A stretch of DNA of 64,000 bases from Bacteroidota bacterium (GTDB lineage: Bacteria > Bacteroidota > Rhodothermia > Balneolales > HLUCCA01). Position 1 is the first letter of the stretch. Every line of letters begins with the position of its first letter. A program made the position numbers and the translations under genes. The stretch spans positions 1 through 64,000 of the forward strand of contig JAFIEZ010000005.1 in NCBI GenBank assembly GCA_020832235.1. The letters run 5' to 3'. Of the stretch, positions 1 through 54,297 are shown in pieces. The notes below the pieces were generated by a model, which saw only the letters and a list, made by a program, of their open reading frames with translations, did no database searches and was not told where the DNA came from.

Positions 1-78
1 CTGCTAATATTGTTTTCCTTCTGGTCTTATTGGAAGGTGGATAAGGTGTACAAGCAACTTCTGAAACAACGTGAGTGA
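1..78 (+). CDS. C-terminal fragment of a membrane protein
   Basis: The window opens inside a gene. Frame 1 reads 25 codons without interruption to TGA at 76-78: a hydrophobic stretch (LLILFSFW) followed by a basic tail ending KQLLKQRE. This is the shape of a last transmembrane helix plus a cytoplasmic tail. The small membrane protein at 1415-1708 ends in the same way (hydrophobic helix, then a short basic tail), so this could be a related gene of a previous cassette, but 25 residues are too few to prove homology. The reading is short and could be chance; the hairpin immediately after the stop supports a true gene end. Confidence 0.4.
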   Translation: MLILFSFWSYWKVDKVYKQLLKQRE

Positions 79-104
79 ATCCTACTTTCTTTACAAAGTA
101 GGAT
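79..104 (+). terminator. Hairpin directly after the partial gene
   Basis: A perfect 10-bp inverted repeat (79-88 with 95-104, loop of 6) begins one base after the stop codon of the upstream fragment. There is no run of T after it, so it is only a probable terminator or 3'-end stabilising hairpin. Confidence 0.4.
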
Positions 105-540
105 GTACGTATACCTCCTGTTGACTATATAAAAGGTTGTACAGCTAGGGCTTCAGGGAGAGACTTCCTGGAGCCTTACTTGTGTGCTAAATCGTCTATG
201 TATGCCATACATATTCTTAAGCGGTACCAAAAAAAGTTACACTTTCTCACTAGGTCTCGGCATTTATCTGTGTGGACTAACGCTAAGATTATAGACCAAG
301 AAAATATGACTACCAAAAAGCTGCTGCGAAAAACGTTTCATGTAGTGTTATAATGGCCGATTTATGTGGGTGTTGAAAAAAAAAGTTGAATTTTTTTTGT
401 AACAAATGGCCTCCGAAATACTCTTACAGATAGCTGCATGCAAAAGGATGCACTATTGTCCATGCGTATGCATGCAGGGTCATCATGGTTCGTCACCCAA
501 GGTGACGGGCTGTCAAAATAACCTAAATTCAAATTCAATT
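105..540. other. Gene-free region upstream of the phase-variable lipoprotein
   Basis: No convincing gene is seen in these 436 bases. The stretch is AT-rich with A and T runs around 377-403. It contains a 9-bp inverted repeat (434-442 with 469-477) and a 7-bp hairpin (491-497 with 501-507), both within about 110 bases of the ATG at 541, so the promoter and control region of the next gene probably lies here. An open frame from 406 runs into the ATG at 541, but its N-terminal part has no protein-like features. Confidence 0.5.
434..477. promoter_or_regulatory. Inverted repeat ctgcatgca / tgcatgcag
   Basis: Nine bases at 434-442 are repeated as an exact reverse complement at 469-477, separated by 26 bases. 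Each arm is itself built on the palindrome tgcatgca. The position 64-107 bases upstream of the ATG at 541 suits a repressor or activator site, or an mRNA leader hairpin. Which protein would bind is unknown. Confidence 0.35.
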
Positions 541-1396
541 ATGAAAACAAAAACATTCTCTCTCTCTCTCTCTCTTAGTCGTAGTCTTGCTTAGTTTAGT
601 CACCATAAAAGCCTGCAATCCGGTGGTCAATGCCGGAGAGGAAGCCGACTGGTTAGCGGAGTATCAGCAGACGCTCAGGCAGGTCCTGACTCAGGCCACG
701 GAGTCCAATCAGCACATGGACATCACCGAAATGGATCAGTTTGCCGCCAACATTCGTCAGGCCTACATCGATGTACTGGGGAATCATGCCGATATGGAAG
801 CCTTCGAAAACGGCTATCGTATGGCAGCTACCCGCGATGTAAGAGCCAAGGAAACCGATACGCAAGCAGAGTCAGTGGTTCAGGACATCATCCGTGAGTC
901 CGATACGCCCGAACAGGCTTTGGAATTGCTCGATGAGCTGTTGGCAAGCCGTGATCTGGATGACAGCCAGCGCCTGGAAGCCATCAACACCCGTGAGTTT
1001 CTTGTCTTTCTTGCAGAAAACAGCGAACTGATTACCCAGCTGCGTGCCTCAAACGTACTTGCGAAGGGAGTGGGGGGTGTTGTAAATCAACCAACATGCT
1101 TTCAAGAAATACAAATACCGAATCAAGAGACTGGAACCGTTACAGTTATTCGTGTAGAAGTGCCTTGTGACCCCGATGATGGTACCCTCGGTGGTGGCGG
1201 GGGTGGTACCGATTGGAAGTGTGCTTTAGTCGTGATAGGCTCAACAGGTTCTGCAGCTTATGGAGCATGTGTCGCTACAGCTGCTTTATTTGCTTTGCCG
1301 ACACTTGGTTTAGGTGCACCAGCGGGTTGCGCAACGGGTGCACTTGTGGGAGGTTTTTTTGCACTTATAACGAGTGTAGGACTAGTTTGTCTTTAA
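541..1396 (+). CDS. Phase-variable lipoprotein with glycine-rich hydrophobic C-terminus (out of frame here)
   Basis: The ATG at 541 begins a lipoprotein-type signal peptide (MKTKTFS, then Leu/Ser repeats), but it stops at 592-594 in this sequence. The frame that continues to 1396 is open from before 587 and supplies the rest of the signal (LLSLVTIKAC, lipobox Cys). The break is at a (CT)9 tract; 10 or 7 units would join both parts into about 285 residues. The alternative TTG start at 587 would leave a stunted signal peptide. After the Cys comes a roughly 160-residue acidic helical region, then two Cys (PTCFQ, VPCDP), a six-Gly linker, and a last 62 residues that are Gly/Ala-rich and hydrophobic with Cys at about 212, 228, 248 and 268 of the 269-residue open frame. 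No family is recognised. The tail resembles hydrophobic bacteriocin or glycine-zipper domains; that is inference. A sequencing error in the CT run would also explain the break. Confidence 0.7.
557..575. repeat. (CT)9 dinucleotide tract inside the lipoprotein signal peptide
   Basis: Nine uninterrupted TC/CT units lie 16 bases inside the gene that starts at 541. Gain of one unit or loss of two puts the start codon in frame with the long downstream frame. Tracts of this type are known slipped-strand contingency loci in surface-protein genes. Confidence 0.9.
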
Positions 1397-2226: not shown

Positions 2227-3330
2227 ATGAATCCCGAATCTCCAAATCAAACACATAACCCCCAATCGCCGAAAGGGGCGCTTAACGCGAATAACGGACC
2301 AGTCCCGGCGAAGGCACCGAAACGTATAACAGCGCTTGTGTGGCTGGTTAACATCAGCATCGTCATACTTGTACTTGGTTTTGCTTTGGCCATCGCTGTG
2401 CTCGTAACATTTCCACGTTTAGTCGACCACTCGCCGAATCTCACTGGTGCCACGCAATACAGTTTTAATGCGCATACCACGTTGTTGGGGAGGTCTTATC
2501 GATATGAATACAGACTAGATGGTCCTGGTCAGGAGCCTGTACAGCAGGTTCTCAAATTCGATCGAAGAAACCTGTTTGAGTTCTCTGTGAGGGATTCGGT
2601 CATGGTGAACTTGCCGCGACTTGAGGATGCATCTAACGATGAAATACTAAAAGGTTTTTTAGATGGTGTCACTTTTGGAAGCAACGCCGGCAAAAATGAA
2701 CTAAGTGCGTATTCAGAAAATTCAGACAACGAAATTAATTCCCTGTTAAATGAAATAGAAAGTACCCTATCTGTAGGGGGTAATGTCGACATCACTGCAT
2801 TGCAACGGGAAGTGGAGAGGGTGGTGGTTGAGGGAGGAATAGCCGATATCGCTAAACTGAGCAATTTGAGGGGCTTAGCATCGGTAAATATGAAGATATT
2901 CAATAGAAGCGAGTCCGTTCCTGTACGTATCGGTCATCCGGGAATTCCGCTAACGGTGGATGAGTTCAAGCGGGAGGTGCGTATCCTCGCTGTGGGATTG
3001 GCCCTTACGATGATCTACCTCATAGTGGTGATGTGGTACATCCGAGGATTCATTACCGGACTTCGCAACATGACGTTCTTCACCGAGGATAACCTCCGAA
3101 AACTGAATATCGCCGCCATTATGCTCACCGTAGGTCCCTTGTTATATGGACTATTCTCGATAATTTTCATCCCTCAATACCCTGATGTGTACAATGCCTC
3201 TTCCTGGGAAACGGGTCCGTATATCAATAACGGCGTGATTGTATTCCTGTTCGGATTACTTTTGCTGGCAATCAGCTGGTGTTTCCGCTATGGTGTTGAC
3301 ATCCAAAAAGAACAGGAGTTTACCGTATAA
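2227..3330 (+). CDS. DUF2975 membrane protein
   Basis: A 367-residue protein with a Pro/Asn-rich cytoplasmic start, a first membrane helix at about residues 34-60, a roughly 190-residue extracytoplasmic region, and three helices near the C-terminus (about 255-275, 290-312, 333-350). The C-terminal third ends in GVDIQKEQEFTV, the typical end of DUF2975 proteins. It overlaps the next gene by one base (TAATG). DUF2975 genes are usually followed by a small Cro/CI-type regulator, as in the Bacillus YoaS/YozG pair; their molecular role is not known. The long extracytoplasmic part is larger than in the usual roughly 160-residue members, suggesting an added sensor region. Call from the C-terminal domain and the partner gene. 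Confidence 0.8.
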   Translation: MNPESPNQTHNPQSPKGALNANNGPVPAKAPKRITALVWLVNISIVILVLGFALAIAVLVTFPRLVDHSPNLTGATQYSFNAHTTLLGRSYRYEYRLDGPGQEPVQQVLKFDRRNLFEFSVRDSVMVNLPRLEDASNDEILKGFLDGVTFGSNAGKNELSAYSENSDNEINSLLNEIESTLSVGGNVDITALQREVERVVVEGGIADIAKLSNLRGLASVNMKIFNRSESVPVRIGHPGIPLTVDEFKREVRILAVGLALTMIYLIVVMWYIRGFITGLRNMTFFTEDNLRKLNIAAIMLTVGPLLYGLFSIIFIPQYPDVYNASSWETGPYINNGVIVFLFGLLLLAISWCFRYGVDIQKEQEFTV

Positions 3331-3554
3331 TGGCCATCATCGTAAATCTCGACGTAATGCTTGCCCGACGAAAAATGTCGCTCACGGAGCTGTCGGAGGC
3401 AGTTGGTATCACCATGGCCAACTTGTCTATACTTAAAAGCAACAAGGCCAAAGCGATACGATTCAGTACCTTAGAAAAAATATGCGAGGTACTGGACTGT
3501 CAGCCCGGCGATATTCTGGAGTTTTCGGCGGATGTGGATGCAAACCCAAAATGA
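3330..3554 (+). CDS. XRE-family (Cro/CI) small transcription regulator
   Basis: A 74-residue single-domain helix-turn-helix protein. MSLTELSEAVGITMANLSIL forms the helix-turn-helix, and the end reads FSTLEKICEVLDCQPGDILE, the standard signature of the YozG-like HTH_26 group. The start codon overlaps the DUF2975 stop by one base, so the two are translationally coupled. It probably represses or activates its own operon, with the palindrome at 2076-2110 as a candidate site, and the membrane partner may control its activity. Nothing in the sequence shows what signal is sensed. Confidence 0.85.
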   Translation: MAIIVNLDVMLARRKMSLTELSEAVGITMANLSILKSNKAKAIRFSTLEKICEVLDCQPGDILEFSADVDANPK

Positions 3555-3747: not shown

Positions 3748-3969
3748 ATGGAAGCAAAAATTCGAAAAGTCGGAAACAGCCTGGGTGTTATTTTACCCAA
3801 GCAGATGATTGAGGAACTTCATCTAAAACCCGGGGATAAATTACGTATAGAACGAAAGGGAGGGAATCTCGAGCTTCATCCTGTTGACCCTGAATTTGAA
3901 GACTGGTCTGAAGCATACCGTCAACTTAATTCAGATTATAAGGACGTACTAAAAGCCTTGGCAGAATGA
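3748..3969 (+). CDS. AbrB/MazE-type antitoxin
   Basis: A 73-residue protein whose N-terminal half is a clear SpoVT-AbrB swapped-hairpin DNA-binding domain (IRKVGNSLGVILPKQM, then LKPGDKLRIER). The C-terminal 30 residues (DWSEAYRQLNSDYKDVLKAL) are predicted helical and should be the toxin-binding tail. Its last bases overlap the Doc start (ATGA, 3966-3969), the usual coupling in toxin-antitoxin operons. It is expected to neutralise the downstream toxin and repress the operon. The pairing of an AbrB-fold antitoxin with Doc, rather than a Phd-fold one, is known in many genomes. Confidence 0.9.
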   Translation: MEAKIRKVGNSLGVILPKQMIEELHLKPGDKLRIERKGGNLELHPVDPEFEDWSEAYRQLNSDYKDVLKALAE

Positions 3970-4355
3970 TCCGTTTTTTGGACAAAGCTACCATTCTGTT
4001 ATTCCATGGCGATCAACTTGAGCGTTATGGAGGAGCTATGGGAATTCGCGATGAGGCGTTATTGGATTCAGCGCTGGCACAGCCTCAAGCCAGTTTTGAC
4101 GGTTCCTATGTACATGAAGATATCTTTCACATGGCAGCTGCATACGCTTATCATCTATGTCAAAACCATCCATTTTACGATGGGAATAAGCGAACAGCAT
4201 TAATCGCAGCTTATACCTTTCTATATGTAAATGGATATCAGCTTGTGGCTGATAAAAAAAGTTTGTTCGCTATTATGATGGATCTAGCTAGTGGAAAGGT
4301 CTCGAAAGAAGAGTTAAGGTTGTATTTCAAGAAACATTCCATAAAAAGGGCGTGA
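3966..4355 (+). CDS. doc: Doc-type (death-on-curing, Fic-fold) toxin
   Basis: A 129-residue Fic/Doc protein of normal Doc length. The active-site motif reads HPFYDGNKRTA, with Lys where Fic AMPylases have the second Gly; this is the Doc signature. The characterised P1 Doc phosphorylates elongation factor EF-Tu and stops translation. The N-terminal HxxxLERYGGAMGIRD and the helix DIFHMAAAYAYHLCQNHPF also match Doc proteins. All catalytic residues visible by eye are present, so the toxin looks intact. It is co-transcribed with the overlapping antitoxin gene and is a chromosomal stabilising or stress module; its actual target here is unknown. Confidence 0.92.
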   Translation: MIRFLDKATILLFHGDQLERYGGAMGIRDEALLDSALAQPQASFDGSYVHEDIFHMAAAYAYHLCQNHPFYDGNKRTALIAAYTFLYVNGYQLVADKKSLFAIMMDLASGKVSKEELRLYFKKHSIKRA

Positions 4356-9303: not shown

Positions 9304-10488
9304 ATGCATTTCAGACCGTTAAAGATTTTTTTGAACTTTGGGATGAGCGTCCTTTTCATGTGTGGGTTAGTCGGGTTAGGCAGTGCGCAAGCTCAGCACG
9401 GTCACCAAGGTACCCATCACGCAGATACCACTTTGCATCATGGTCATGGTACTCATCACGCGGACACCACTTCGCATCATGGTCACGGTACTCATTACGT
9501 GGATACCACTTCGCATCATGGTCCCGGTACCCATCACGCGGATACCACTTCGCACCATGGTCACGGTACTCATCAGGCGGACCGGCACCGGTCCCACACC
9601 GCGCAAACAGGCACAAATGGCAGAACAGCCGCTGAGCTAGAAGCCCTCTTCATGCAGCGACGTCAGAACGACCGCATGAATTTTGTGGCGGCAGATGTAC
9701 ATTTCATGGAAATGATGATTCCGCACCATGCCCAGGCACTGATTATGTCGAAGCTGGCACCCGAAAACGATGCCAGTCCGGCCGTTCAACGCCTAGCCGC
9801 TCGTATTTATGGTGCCCAGAAAGATGAAATAGCGCTGATGCAGACCTGGTTGCGCGATCGGGCACAGGCTGTGCCGATTATCCATTTCGACGGGGTGTAT
9901 ATGCATGTGGGGATGGAAATGCCGGAGGGTGTTGATGCACATTCGGTGCATGGCGGGCATGCCAATCACGGCTCACATTCAACCCATCATGATCACCATA
10001 GCGGGCATTCAGCTGAGGGTGTACACGAAGAACACCATCAGGAACATGACCACCGGAGCCATGAAGGTCACCGAGACGGGCATCAGGGGCACACAATAGA
10101 GCATACCCATAGCGGGCATGAGTCCTCGTCAGCAGATACCGGTCACTCCGGTCATTCGGGGCATGATGCACAAATTGATAGACACGCTTCCGACAACCAT
10201 CGTTTCGAAGCACTGGGACACAACCACCTCCACGACCATCACGACATGCCCGGCATGCTCACCCAGGAGCAACTCTACGAACTCGCCACTGCTGAAGGAC
10301 GTGAATTCGACCGCCTTTTCCTCACCTTTATGATTGAACACCACCTCGGAGCTGTCATCATGGTCAACGACCTTTTTGCCACAGACGGAGGCGCGCTCGA
10401 CCGCGAAGCCTATCGACTTGCAACCGATATCTATGCCGAACAAATTACCGAAATCGATCTCATGCGTCTCATGCTCAGAGATTATTAA
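9304..10488 (+). CDS. Exported His-rich protein with a split DUF305 domain
   Basis: A 394-residue secreted or outer-membrane-facing protein. The ATG at 9304 fits the signal peptide (FLNFGMSVLFMCGLVGLGSAQAQ) better than the TTG at 9298. Four 13-residue repeats (consensus HHADTTSHHGHGT) follow directly. The DUF305 four-helix fold appears in two halves: FMEMMIPHHAQALIMSKLA ... ALMQTWLRDR (about 135-185) and FLTFMIEHHLGAVIMVNDLF ... DLMRLMLRDY (about 343-394). Between them lie about 140 residues extremely rich in His, Gly and Ser (HSTHHDHHSGHS and similar). His clusters of this kind bind transition metals such as Cu, Zn or Ni; DUF305 proteins are often found near metal-handling genes. A role in extracytoplasmic metal binding is inference. 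It is followed after 33 bases by the LVIVD lipoprotein, probably in one operon. Confidence 0.85.
   Translation: MHFRPLKIFLNFGMSVLFMCGLVGLGSAQAQHGHQGTHHADTTLHHGHGTHHADTTSHHGHGTHYVDTTSHHGPGTHHADTTSHHGHGTHQADRHRSHTAQTGTNGRTAAELEALFMQRRQNDRMNFVAADVHFMEMMIPHHAQALIMSKLAPENDASPAVQRLAARIYGAQKDEIALMQTWLRDRAQAVPIIHFDGVYMHVGMEMPEGVDAHSVHGGHANHGSHSTHHDHHSGHSAEGVHEEHHQEHDHRSHEGHRDGHQGHTIEHTHSGHESSSADTGHSGHSGHDAQIDRHASDNHRFEALGHNHLHDHHDMPGMLTQEQLYELATAEGREFDRLFLTFMIEHHLGAVIMVNDLFATDGGALDREAYRLATDIYAEQITEIDLMRLMLRDY
9415..9570. repeat. Four 39-bp in-frame tandem repeats encoding His-rich 13-mers
   Basis: Units start at 9415, 9454, 9493 and 9532, each 39 bases with a few substitutions; a partial fifth copy starts at 9571. 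Because the unit is 13 codons, copy-number change keeps the DUF305 gene in frame and only alters the number of His repeats. Confidence 0.9.
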
Positions 10489-53164: not shown

Positions 53165-54003
53165 TGAAATCGATCAAAACGGGGCTTCCTTTCTATTTTT
53201 TAATGGTTCTTATCATCGTATCTGCTGGTAATACCGCAGCGGGTTTTAGCGTGGGAGAGGTTCAAGATGAGGAAACCGTAACAATAAGCGGATATGCATT
53301 GAGCGCGCAAGAGCGCTTCGCGGCTGCTAACAACCTCCTCAATGAACATCGGTACAATGAAGCTCTGGCAGCATTCCGTACGATTGTGAGAGAGGGTAAG
53401 CATAATGGCCCTCTGTACCTTAATATGGGAATTGCAGCCACCAGGCTAGACAGTCTGGGTCTCGCGCAGGTTTATTTTACGATAGCTTCCGGTTTTTCTG
53501 AAACGGTAAGAGCATCACAGGAAGGGCTTGATTTTGTCACAGATCAATTGGCTCGTAGAGGGGCTCAGCTTCCGGAGTTAGGCTGGATATCCATTCATAA
53601 CCTGTTCTATTTTCAAATCAATTACGCGGTGTGGCTGGCTGTGGGTGTACTTTTGGTTAATGTGGGTGTAATCTGGTTTATTCTAGTCTGGCTGCGCGAG
53701 CGGTACCGCCCTGTAAATCGAAATGCTGCTATTGTTACGTCGGCTGCAGGACTGTTAGTAGTTATGGCAAGTATCGCTTTCTCGCTGCAGGCCGACCGGT
53801 ATGAACAGGGTGTGCAGATTGTTAGAGAGGCCTCTGTTTATGTAACACCCGACTCAGAATCGGACGTAGTGCAGACGGCCTTCGAAGGATTCCGGTTTAT
53901 CGTGAGTATTCCGGAGTCCAATTCGTACGATGGCTGGGTGCGGGTTCGTATGGTGAATGGTGCCCGTGGTTGGGTGCGAGAGGAGACGATTTATCGGTTC
54001 TGA
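53161..54003 (+). CDS. batE: BatE (TPR and SH3-like) protein
   Basis: A 280-residue protein with signal peptide, TPR-like helices (about 50-125, AANNLLNEHRYNEALAAFR), two membrane helices (about 155-177 WLAVGVLLVNVGVIWFILVW, and 190-207) and a C-terminal bacterial SH3 domain (about 220-280) ending GARGWVREETIYRF. This is the standard BatE order. The last codons and stop are part of a tandem array of 39-bp degenerate copies (53998-54153) in which each unit repeats the sequence of this C-terminal end including an in-frame stop. Confidence 0.92.
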   Translation: MMKSIKTGLPFYFLMVLIIVSAGNTAAGFSVGEVQDEETVTISGYALSAQERFAAANNLLNEHRYNEALAAFRTIVREGKHNGPLYLNMGIAATRLDSLGLAQVYFTIASGFSETVRASQEGLDFVTDQLARRGAQLPELGWISIHNLFYFQINYAVWLAVGVLLVNVGVIWFILVWLRERYRPVNRNAAIVTSAAGLLVVMASIAFSLQADRYEQGVQIVREASVYVTPDSESDVVQTAFEGFRFIVSIPESNSYDGWVRVRMVNGARGWVREETIYRF

Positions 54004-54153
54004 ATCATGGTGCACCGGGATGAGGCGTTATATCGGTGCTGAATCATGGTGCACCGGGATGAGGCGTTGAATCGGTTCTGAATCATGGTACACCGGGAAG
54101 AGACGTTCAATCGGTTCTGAATCGTGGTGCACCGGGATGAGGCGTTATATCGG
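53998..54153. repeat. Four 39-bp tandem repeats derived from the batE 3' end
   Basis: Units begin at 53998, 54037, 54076 and 54115, with a partial fifth at 54154. Each differs from the next at a few positions. In the batE frame each unit reads as VHRDEALYR-like or VHREETFNR-like text and then TGA, echoing the true gene end VREETIYRF plus stop. The last 39 bases of coding sequence (53959-53997) share about 16 of the final 21 positions with the unit. Confidence 0.9.
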
Positions 54154-54297
54154 TGCTGAAACCTGCCGCCTCCGCACAGAGAAACTGTCGCGAAACTGCT
54201 ATATTGAAGGCATGAAATAAAAACATGGGGGCGGTTGTGGCGCGCAAGCATTGCCGGGCAGAAGCAACCTTATCCTACAACCTTTTGAAATACTATT

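Follow-up and report, generated by a model that had tools for sequence, protein, structure and literature searches.

A CT repeat as the probable ON/OFF switch of a lipoprotein gene, OFF in this copy, in tandem cassettes of candidate envelope weapons

The locus at 541–1396 of the window (the whole stretch of DNA analysed here, 64 kb long) is best read as a lipoprotein gene subject to slippage-driven ON/OFF switching at a CT repeat, with this copy OFF, a reading supported by the arrangement of its frames and by its paralogues. We further consider it probable that the locus belongs to a set of phase-switched tandem lipoprotein cassettes acting as envelope weapons and accompanied by protective partners. 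The source genome (G000) comprises 3.38 Mb in 20 contigs, and the window opens contig C11. The relevant features, with the basis of each in brackets, are as follows.

1–78, + strand: 3′ end of a small open reading frame (ORF) with two transmembrane (TM) segments (...LLILFSFWSYWKVDKVYKQLLKQRE), 91 aa, with its start on contig L028 (141-base overlap with L028)
399–426, + strand: shared upstream element GTAACAAATGGCCTCCGAAATACTCTTA, promoter-like, presumed to be of the extracytoplasmic function (ECF) type (genome pattern search)
427–540, + strand: conserved 5′ leader of the family header (alignment of four copies)
541–594, + strand: short ATG-started ORF of 17 codons, the OFF product, with TAG stop at 592–594 (ORF reading)
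557–575, + strand: (TC)9T slippage tract in the h-region of the signal peptide (pattern search, shuffles)
575–1396, + strand: body frame with the second half of the signal peptide, lipobox-like TIKAC, N-terminal domain and variable C-terminus (open frame, dN/dS, homologues)
815–1020, + strand: mosaic boundaries relative to the C2 copy and L028 copy a (steps in nucleotide identity)
1187–1393, + strand: hydrophobic C-terminal domain rich in Gly, Ala and Cys, Gly-zipper-like and bacteriocin-like (alignment, hydropathy, sub-threshold PF10439 match on homologue L002 only)
1403–1708, + strand: small protein with two hydrophobic segments, an immunity-like partner, 6 nt past the lipoprotein stop (hydropathy, partner-family alignment, gene order in relatives)

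The tract, TCTCTCTCTCTCTCTCTCT, is a perfect (TC)9T, that is, nine CT units. It begins 16 nt past the A of ATG 541, is pure, and has a repeat unit that is not a multiple of three. The 19-mer is present in 0/100 dinucleotide shuffles of the window and has an expectation of 6.5e-8 per 64 kb (first-order Markov estimate), and therefore we do not attribute it to chance. Translation from ATG 541 yields MKTKTFSLSLSLSRSLA, after which TAG 592–594 ends the frame. The body frame, which lies at +1 relative to the ATG, reads LVVVLLSLVTIKACNPVV... from TTA 575 (in a longer reading, LVVVLLSLVTIKACNPVVNAGEE...) and is open to 1396, over 273 codons; a 272-codon open run has P ~8e-7 at the base composition of the window. 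In this frame, TGA 542–544 overlaps ATG 541, and no ATG, GTG or TTG occurs between that TGA and TTG 587. The latter is the only start ahead of the lipobox-like TIKAC and would yield no signal peptide. By frame arithmetic, the two frames are aligned by the gain of one CT unit or the loss of two, and read together their halves form one predicted lipoprotein signal peptide. These readings agree with the original prediction, which had claimed a nine-unit CT tract at 557–575, a signal-peptide-like ORF from ATG 541 that stops at 592–594, an offset correctable by one extra CT or two fewer, and more than 260 further codons in the offset frame.

The tract is not peculiar to one gene. A DNA search of the 3.38 Mb genome finds two further headers at 90% identity, on contigs C2 and C14, and a pattern search places (CT)7 or longer at no more than three loci there, all of them headers of this family. 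With nine units, the C2 copy is out of frame, and its open body runs off the contig end; the C14 copy, whose ten units sit in a somewhat different context, is also out of frame and has its body shortened by a stop. A scan of public genomes additionally identified contig L028 (JAFIEY010000259.1, 3.7 kb, labelled as belonging to a Cryomorphaceae MAG), which carries two copies: copy a consists of an open body only, its 5′ end being missing, and copy b has a full header with (TC)11T, out of frame, followed by an open body. L028 also has a two-TM ORF after copy a, more TM ORFs and a degraded header remnant. Thus, of the earlier description of the tract as a feature of a lipoprotein gene, the tract stands and the single gene does not, the header being common to several paralogues.

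The last 141 bases of L028 (3558–3698) are 100% identical to window 1–141. The name of L028 follows the pattern k141_..., which is typical of MEGAHIT, and neighbours in such a graph share exactly 141 bases. Because of this overlap and naming, we place L028 directly upstream of the window; it probably adjoins it and was misbinned, and it could represent one strain variant. The possibility that contigs break at the array because the tract is polymorphic was weighed and dropped, as L028 starts ~64 bases past the expected tract end. At L014:2238–3350, a header copy that is truncated precedes two small TM ORFs resembling orphan immunity genes; mnmE is near this copy, and the homologue in genome G033 is likewise close to mnmE.

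Elsewhere in the window, 2227–3554 carries genes for a DUF2975 membrane protein and, after it, an HTH_26 regulator, and 3748–4355 encodes a MazE-type antitoxin followed by a Fic/Doc protein, likely a toxin–antitoxin pair. Arrays of a 39-base tandem repeat, ~4.4 copies each and with differing units, occupy 9409–9581 and 53992–54160.

Comparison of the copies suggests that the switch is live. Across the four paralogous headers (window, C2, C14 and L028 copy b), the unit numbers are 9, 9, 10 and 11, so that repeat number varies between homologous loci, and the tract is pure in all four though their flanks differ by 10–16%. None of the four is in frame, an outcome with a chance of ~0.2 for four random frames. 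The bodies of the window, C2 and both L028 copies are open despite the window, C2 and L028 copy b being out of frame. The N-terminal domain has a dN/dS of 0.19–0.23 in three pairs, and the 21 differences between the window and L028 copy a fall 4, 1 and 16 on the three codon positions (P 7e-5). Because bodies are open and dN/dS is ~0.2 while frames are off, a reversible switch is favoured over a dead gene. The phase-variation proposal is hence strengthened by pure tracts of variable length, open bodies under selection and the recurrence of CT tracts; a check for decay, the contrary outcome named in the original prediction, found paralogues that carry CT repeats and a gene that shows no decay.

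Similar tracts occur beyond this family. (CT)8 or longer is present in 16/196 genomes of the wider group, and at least six other loci put a CT tract in a signal peptide shortly past the ATG, one in frame and five out (L051, L052, L056, L058, L059 and L070, in genomes G110, G115, G140, G172 and G154, the last with two). These six loci encode unrelated exported proteins, e.g. a Peptidase_S74 protein, and L058 and L059, which encode orthologous proteins of two species, have 15.5 and 8.5 units, respectively. No (CT)8 tract was found in the five genomes with homologues of the lipoprotein described below (G018, G015, G033, G074 and G040), for which reason the switch in the window family looks like a local addition.

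The body frame has a lipobox, LVTIKAC, with its Cys codon at 614–616 and an atypical Lys at −2; the lipoboxes of homologues (TLGAC, MFGAC, NFSAC and LMSC) are of the canonical type. Nucleotide identity between the window and L028 copy a is 92–97% to ~1020 and then ~45%, and between the window and the C2 copy ~90% to ~815 and then ~50%; L028 copy b shares the header alone with the window. The header and N-terminus are therefore common to the window protein and its paralogues, and the remainder is exchanged. This retention of the N-terminus with a swapped C-terminus, at steps near 815 and 1020, is the arrangement of polymorphic toxins. The window protein could be assigned to no family in Pfam, NCBIfam or PHROGs, a PDB profile search produced chance matches only, and plasmids and viral contigs yielded nothing. 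AlphaFold on the window and L028 sequences gave a pLDDT of 38.7, too low to be of use.

A two-segment ORF follows the lipoprotein gene in every case examined (window, L028 copies a and b, G018 [two], G015, G033, G074 and G040), so that the adjacent small gene of polymorphic toxin–immunity systems is found here and in relatives. The homologues in G018, G015 and G033 are at 24–26% identity, with others in G074 and G040, and the C-termini of all five read WWxxWGxCxAGxxGGAGxGxxxGC...GAxxGxxxGA...C. G181, of another family, has an equal plan with a larger TM protein. The Gly-rich C-terminus of homologue L002 matches Bacteriocin_IIc (PF10439) with E 0.0013 and 19.2 bits, below the curated cut-off of 27.1; the window protein has no match to this model. 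The double-glycine leader typical of Bacteriocin_IIc is absent, a lipoprotein-type signal peptide being in its place. Weak matches in the class at L081 and L083–L086 were set aside as unrelated, being OmpA-like Gly-zipper lipoproteins without such a partner. The G074 cassette (L042) is flanked by a duplicated piece of the neighbouring transporter gene, which suggests insertion with duplication. From the Gly-zipper C-terminus, the two-TM partner, the sub-threshold Bacteriocin_IIc match and a parallel with ionophores of contact-dependent inhibition (CDI), we infer that the product is a membrane toxin with a lipid anchor and that its partner confers immunity, and we hold this less firmly than the switch.

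Upstream of the leader lies a 28-base element, GTAACAAATN4TCCGAAATACTCTTA, which begins 142 bases upstream of ATG 541. A search that allowed three mismatches located it at five places in the genome, each an exact match, and the reversed pattern at none; it is also found upstream of L028 copy b. Three of the five places are the headers; the other two belong to a response regulator/TPR/CHAT locus and to a HlyD/MacA-like efflux gene, the latter of which has the element in a congener too. Coordinates noted for the element are window 399–426, C10:67314 and C14:184548. A Sigma70_r4 (ECF-like) gene (L094:3201–3764) lies just past the CHAT gene of the element-bearing locus, and the element sites are perhaps a small regulon of an ECF sigma factor.

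Taken together, the locus would be one cassette in a tandem array of units, each a lipoprotein gene plus a small two-TM partner. A common header (promoter-like element, leader and (CT)n signal peptide) would open each lipoprotein gene, and slipped-strand mispairing would alter the unit number and thereby decide whether the signal peptide and the body share a frame. Cells would then differ randomly in the lipoprotein that they produce. The most probable role of the lipoprotein is that of a weapon, anchored in the envelope, which permeabilises membranes and has an exchangeable Gly-zipper C-terminus; the partner would most likely shield the producer. What we infer in this model is that slippage takes place in the living population, that the lipoprotein acts against bacteria, that the partner gives immunity and that control is of the ECF type. 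A more specific version, which we offer tentatively, is that these are a new phase-variable family of lipid-anchored pore-forming toxins with two-TM immunity proteins, in tandem cassettes with a header in common, composed of an ECF-type promoter, a leader and a signal peptide that holds the CT tract, such that a clone may stochastically display subsets of its weapons while being immune to all of them.

Other explanations concern either the reality of the switch or the role of the protein. It is very unlikely that these genes are decaying pseudogenes with the tract frozen out of frame and no reversible switching. Every copy seen is OFF, the C14 copy is truncated and L028 has the degraded header remnant, but four long open bodies with low dN/dS and a third-position excess, intact partner genes and pure tracts of differing length argue against decay. 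An error of assembly or sequencing in the repeat, with the gene always in frame in nature, is highly improbable: the assembly is a draft and the contig starts close to the locus, yet the tracts are short (19–23 bases), none of the four separate headers is in frame and their tract lengths differ, and out-of-frame CT tracts recur in other genomes. Scarcely credible is production of the body from the OFF sequence, either by programmed frameshifting at the tract or by restart at TTG 587. The TTG lies just ahead of TAG 592–594 and opens a 269-aa ORF, whose product, however, has no signal peptide. Programmed frameshifting was rejected, because the window and C2 copies need a different shift from L028 copy b and one site cannot serve both.

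The remaining alternative accepts the switch and takes the lipoprotein to be a surface antigen, an adhesin or a phage receptor, with a C-terminus that varies so as to evade phages or grazers, and the TM ORF to encode an accessory protein; we regard it as unlikely, though a genuine contender. In its favour, surface proteins are classical bearers of phase-variable signal peptides (PMC3960876), the products of the other CT-tract genes in the class are exported proteins of unrelated kinds, the Peptidase_S74 protein among them, and no family match exceeds a cut-off. Against this, the conserved pairing with a two-TM gene, the Gly-zipper-like C-terminus with its conserved Cys and Trp residues, and the truncated C14 copy followed by TM ORFs fit toxin–immunity arrays better.

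To our knowledge, host-associated pathogens account for most known signal-peptide switches driven by repeats. In the present case, the CT signal-peptide device recurs across a class outside such pathogens, and in the window genome it is confined to one family resembling competition weapons. Nothing observed here supports the pathogen setting in which the switch was originally placed: the DNA belongs to a draft genome, and the product under the switch resembles an interbacterial weapon more than a host-facing antigen. If the proposed reading is true, stochastic switching is tied to interbacterial warfare, and the reason for keeping costly weapons mostly OFF becomes testable. Annotation pipelines would call such genes truncated or begin them at a false TTG.

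Several known systems share parts of this design. In Helicobacter pylori, slipped-strand mispairing in the CT tracts of oipA/hopH, hopZ, sabA and babA/B changes the frame (PMC3960876). The mechanism is the same; the targets there are outer-membrane adhesins of a pathogen, in contrast to a small lipoprotein with a two-TM partner in an unrelated lineage, for which switching is predicted from sequence. In the nap island of Neisseria gonorrhoeae, tracts that are likely phase-variable occur in genes for bacteriocin-like peptides, of which napC is mainly OFF, and an immunity-like partner is present (PMC11798529). It is a precedent for mostly-OFF bacteriocin-like genes, but it differs in having homopolymer tracts, GG-leader peptides and autolysis, and lacks a lipoprotein anchor or shared header family. 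The myxobacterial SitA/SitI systems, in the part of their description drawn on here, comprise lipoprotein toxins with N-terminal escort domains, a polymorphic C-terminus and an adjacent immunity gene (PMC8546572). SitA differs in that its C-terminal nucleases are delivered via outer-membrane exchange, that part of the source mentions no repeat switch, and the likeness is one of description only. The CDI ionophores of CdiA-CT type 10 depolarise membranes by means of helical domains in which a putative glycine zipper occurs, and their CdiI partners are polymorphic, predicted two-helix hairpins (PMC11630599); they differ in delivery by the large CdiA exoprotein and in having no repeat switch, and the resemblance is one of general plan. 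The likeness to class IIc bacteriocins (PF10439) lies in the Gly-rich C-terminus of homologue L002, over model positions 18–58, whereas the family described here has a lipobox, a large N-terminal domain and no double-glycine leader. Literature searches, with most subscription papers outside their scope, found no CT-tract lipoprotein toxin family. The type of switch is thus classical, and the gene family beneath it appears new.
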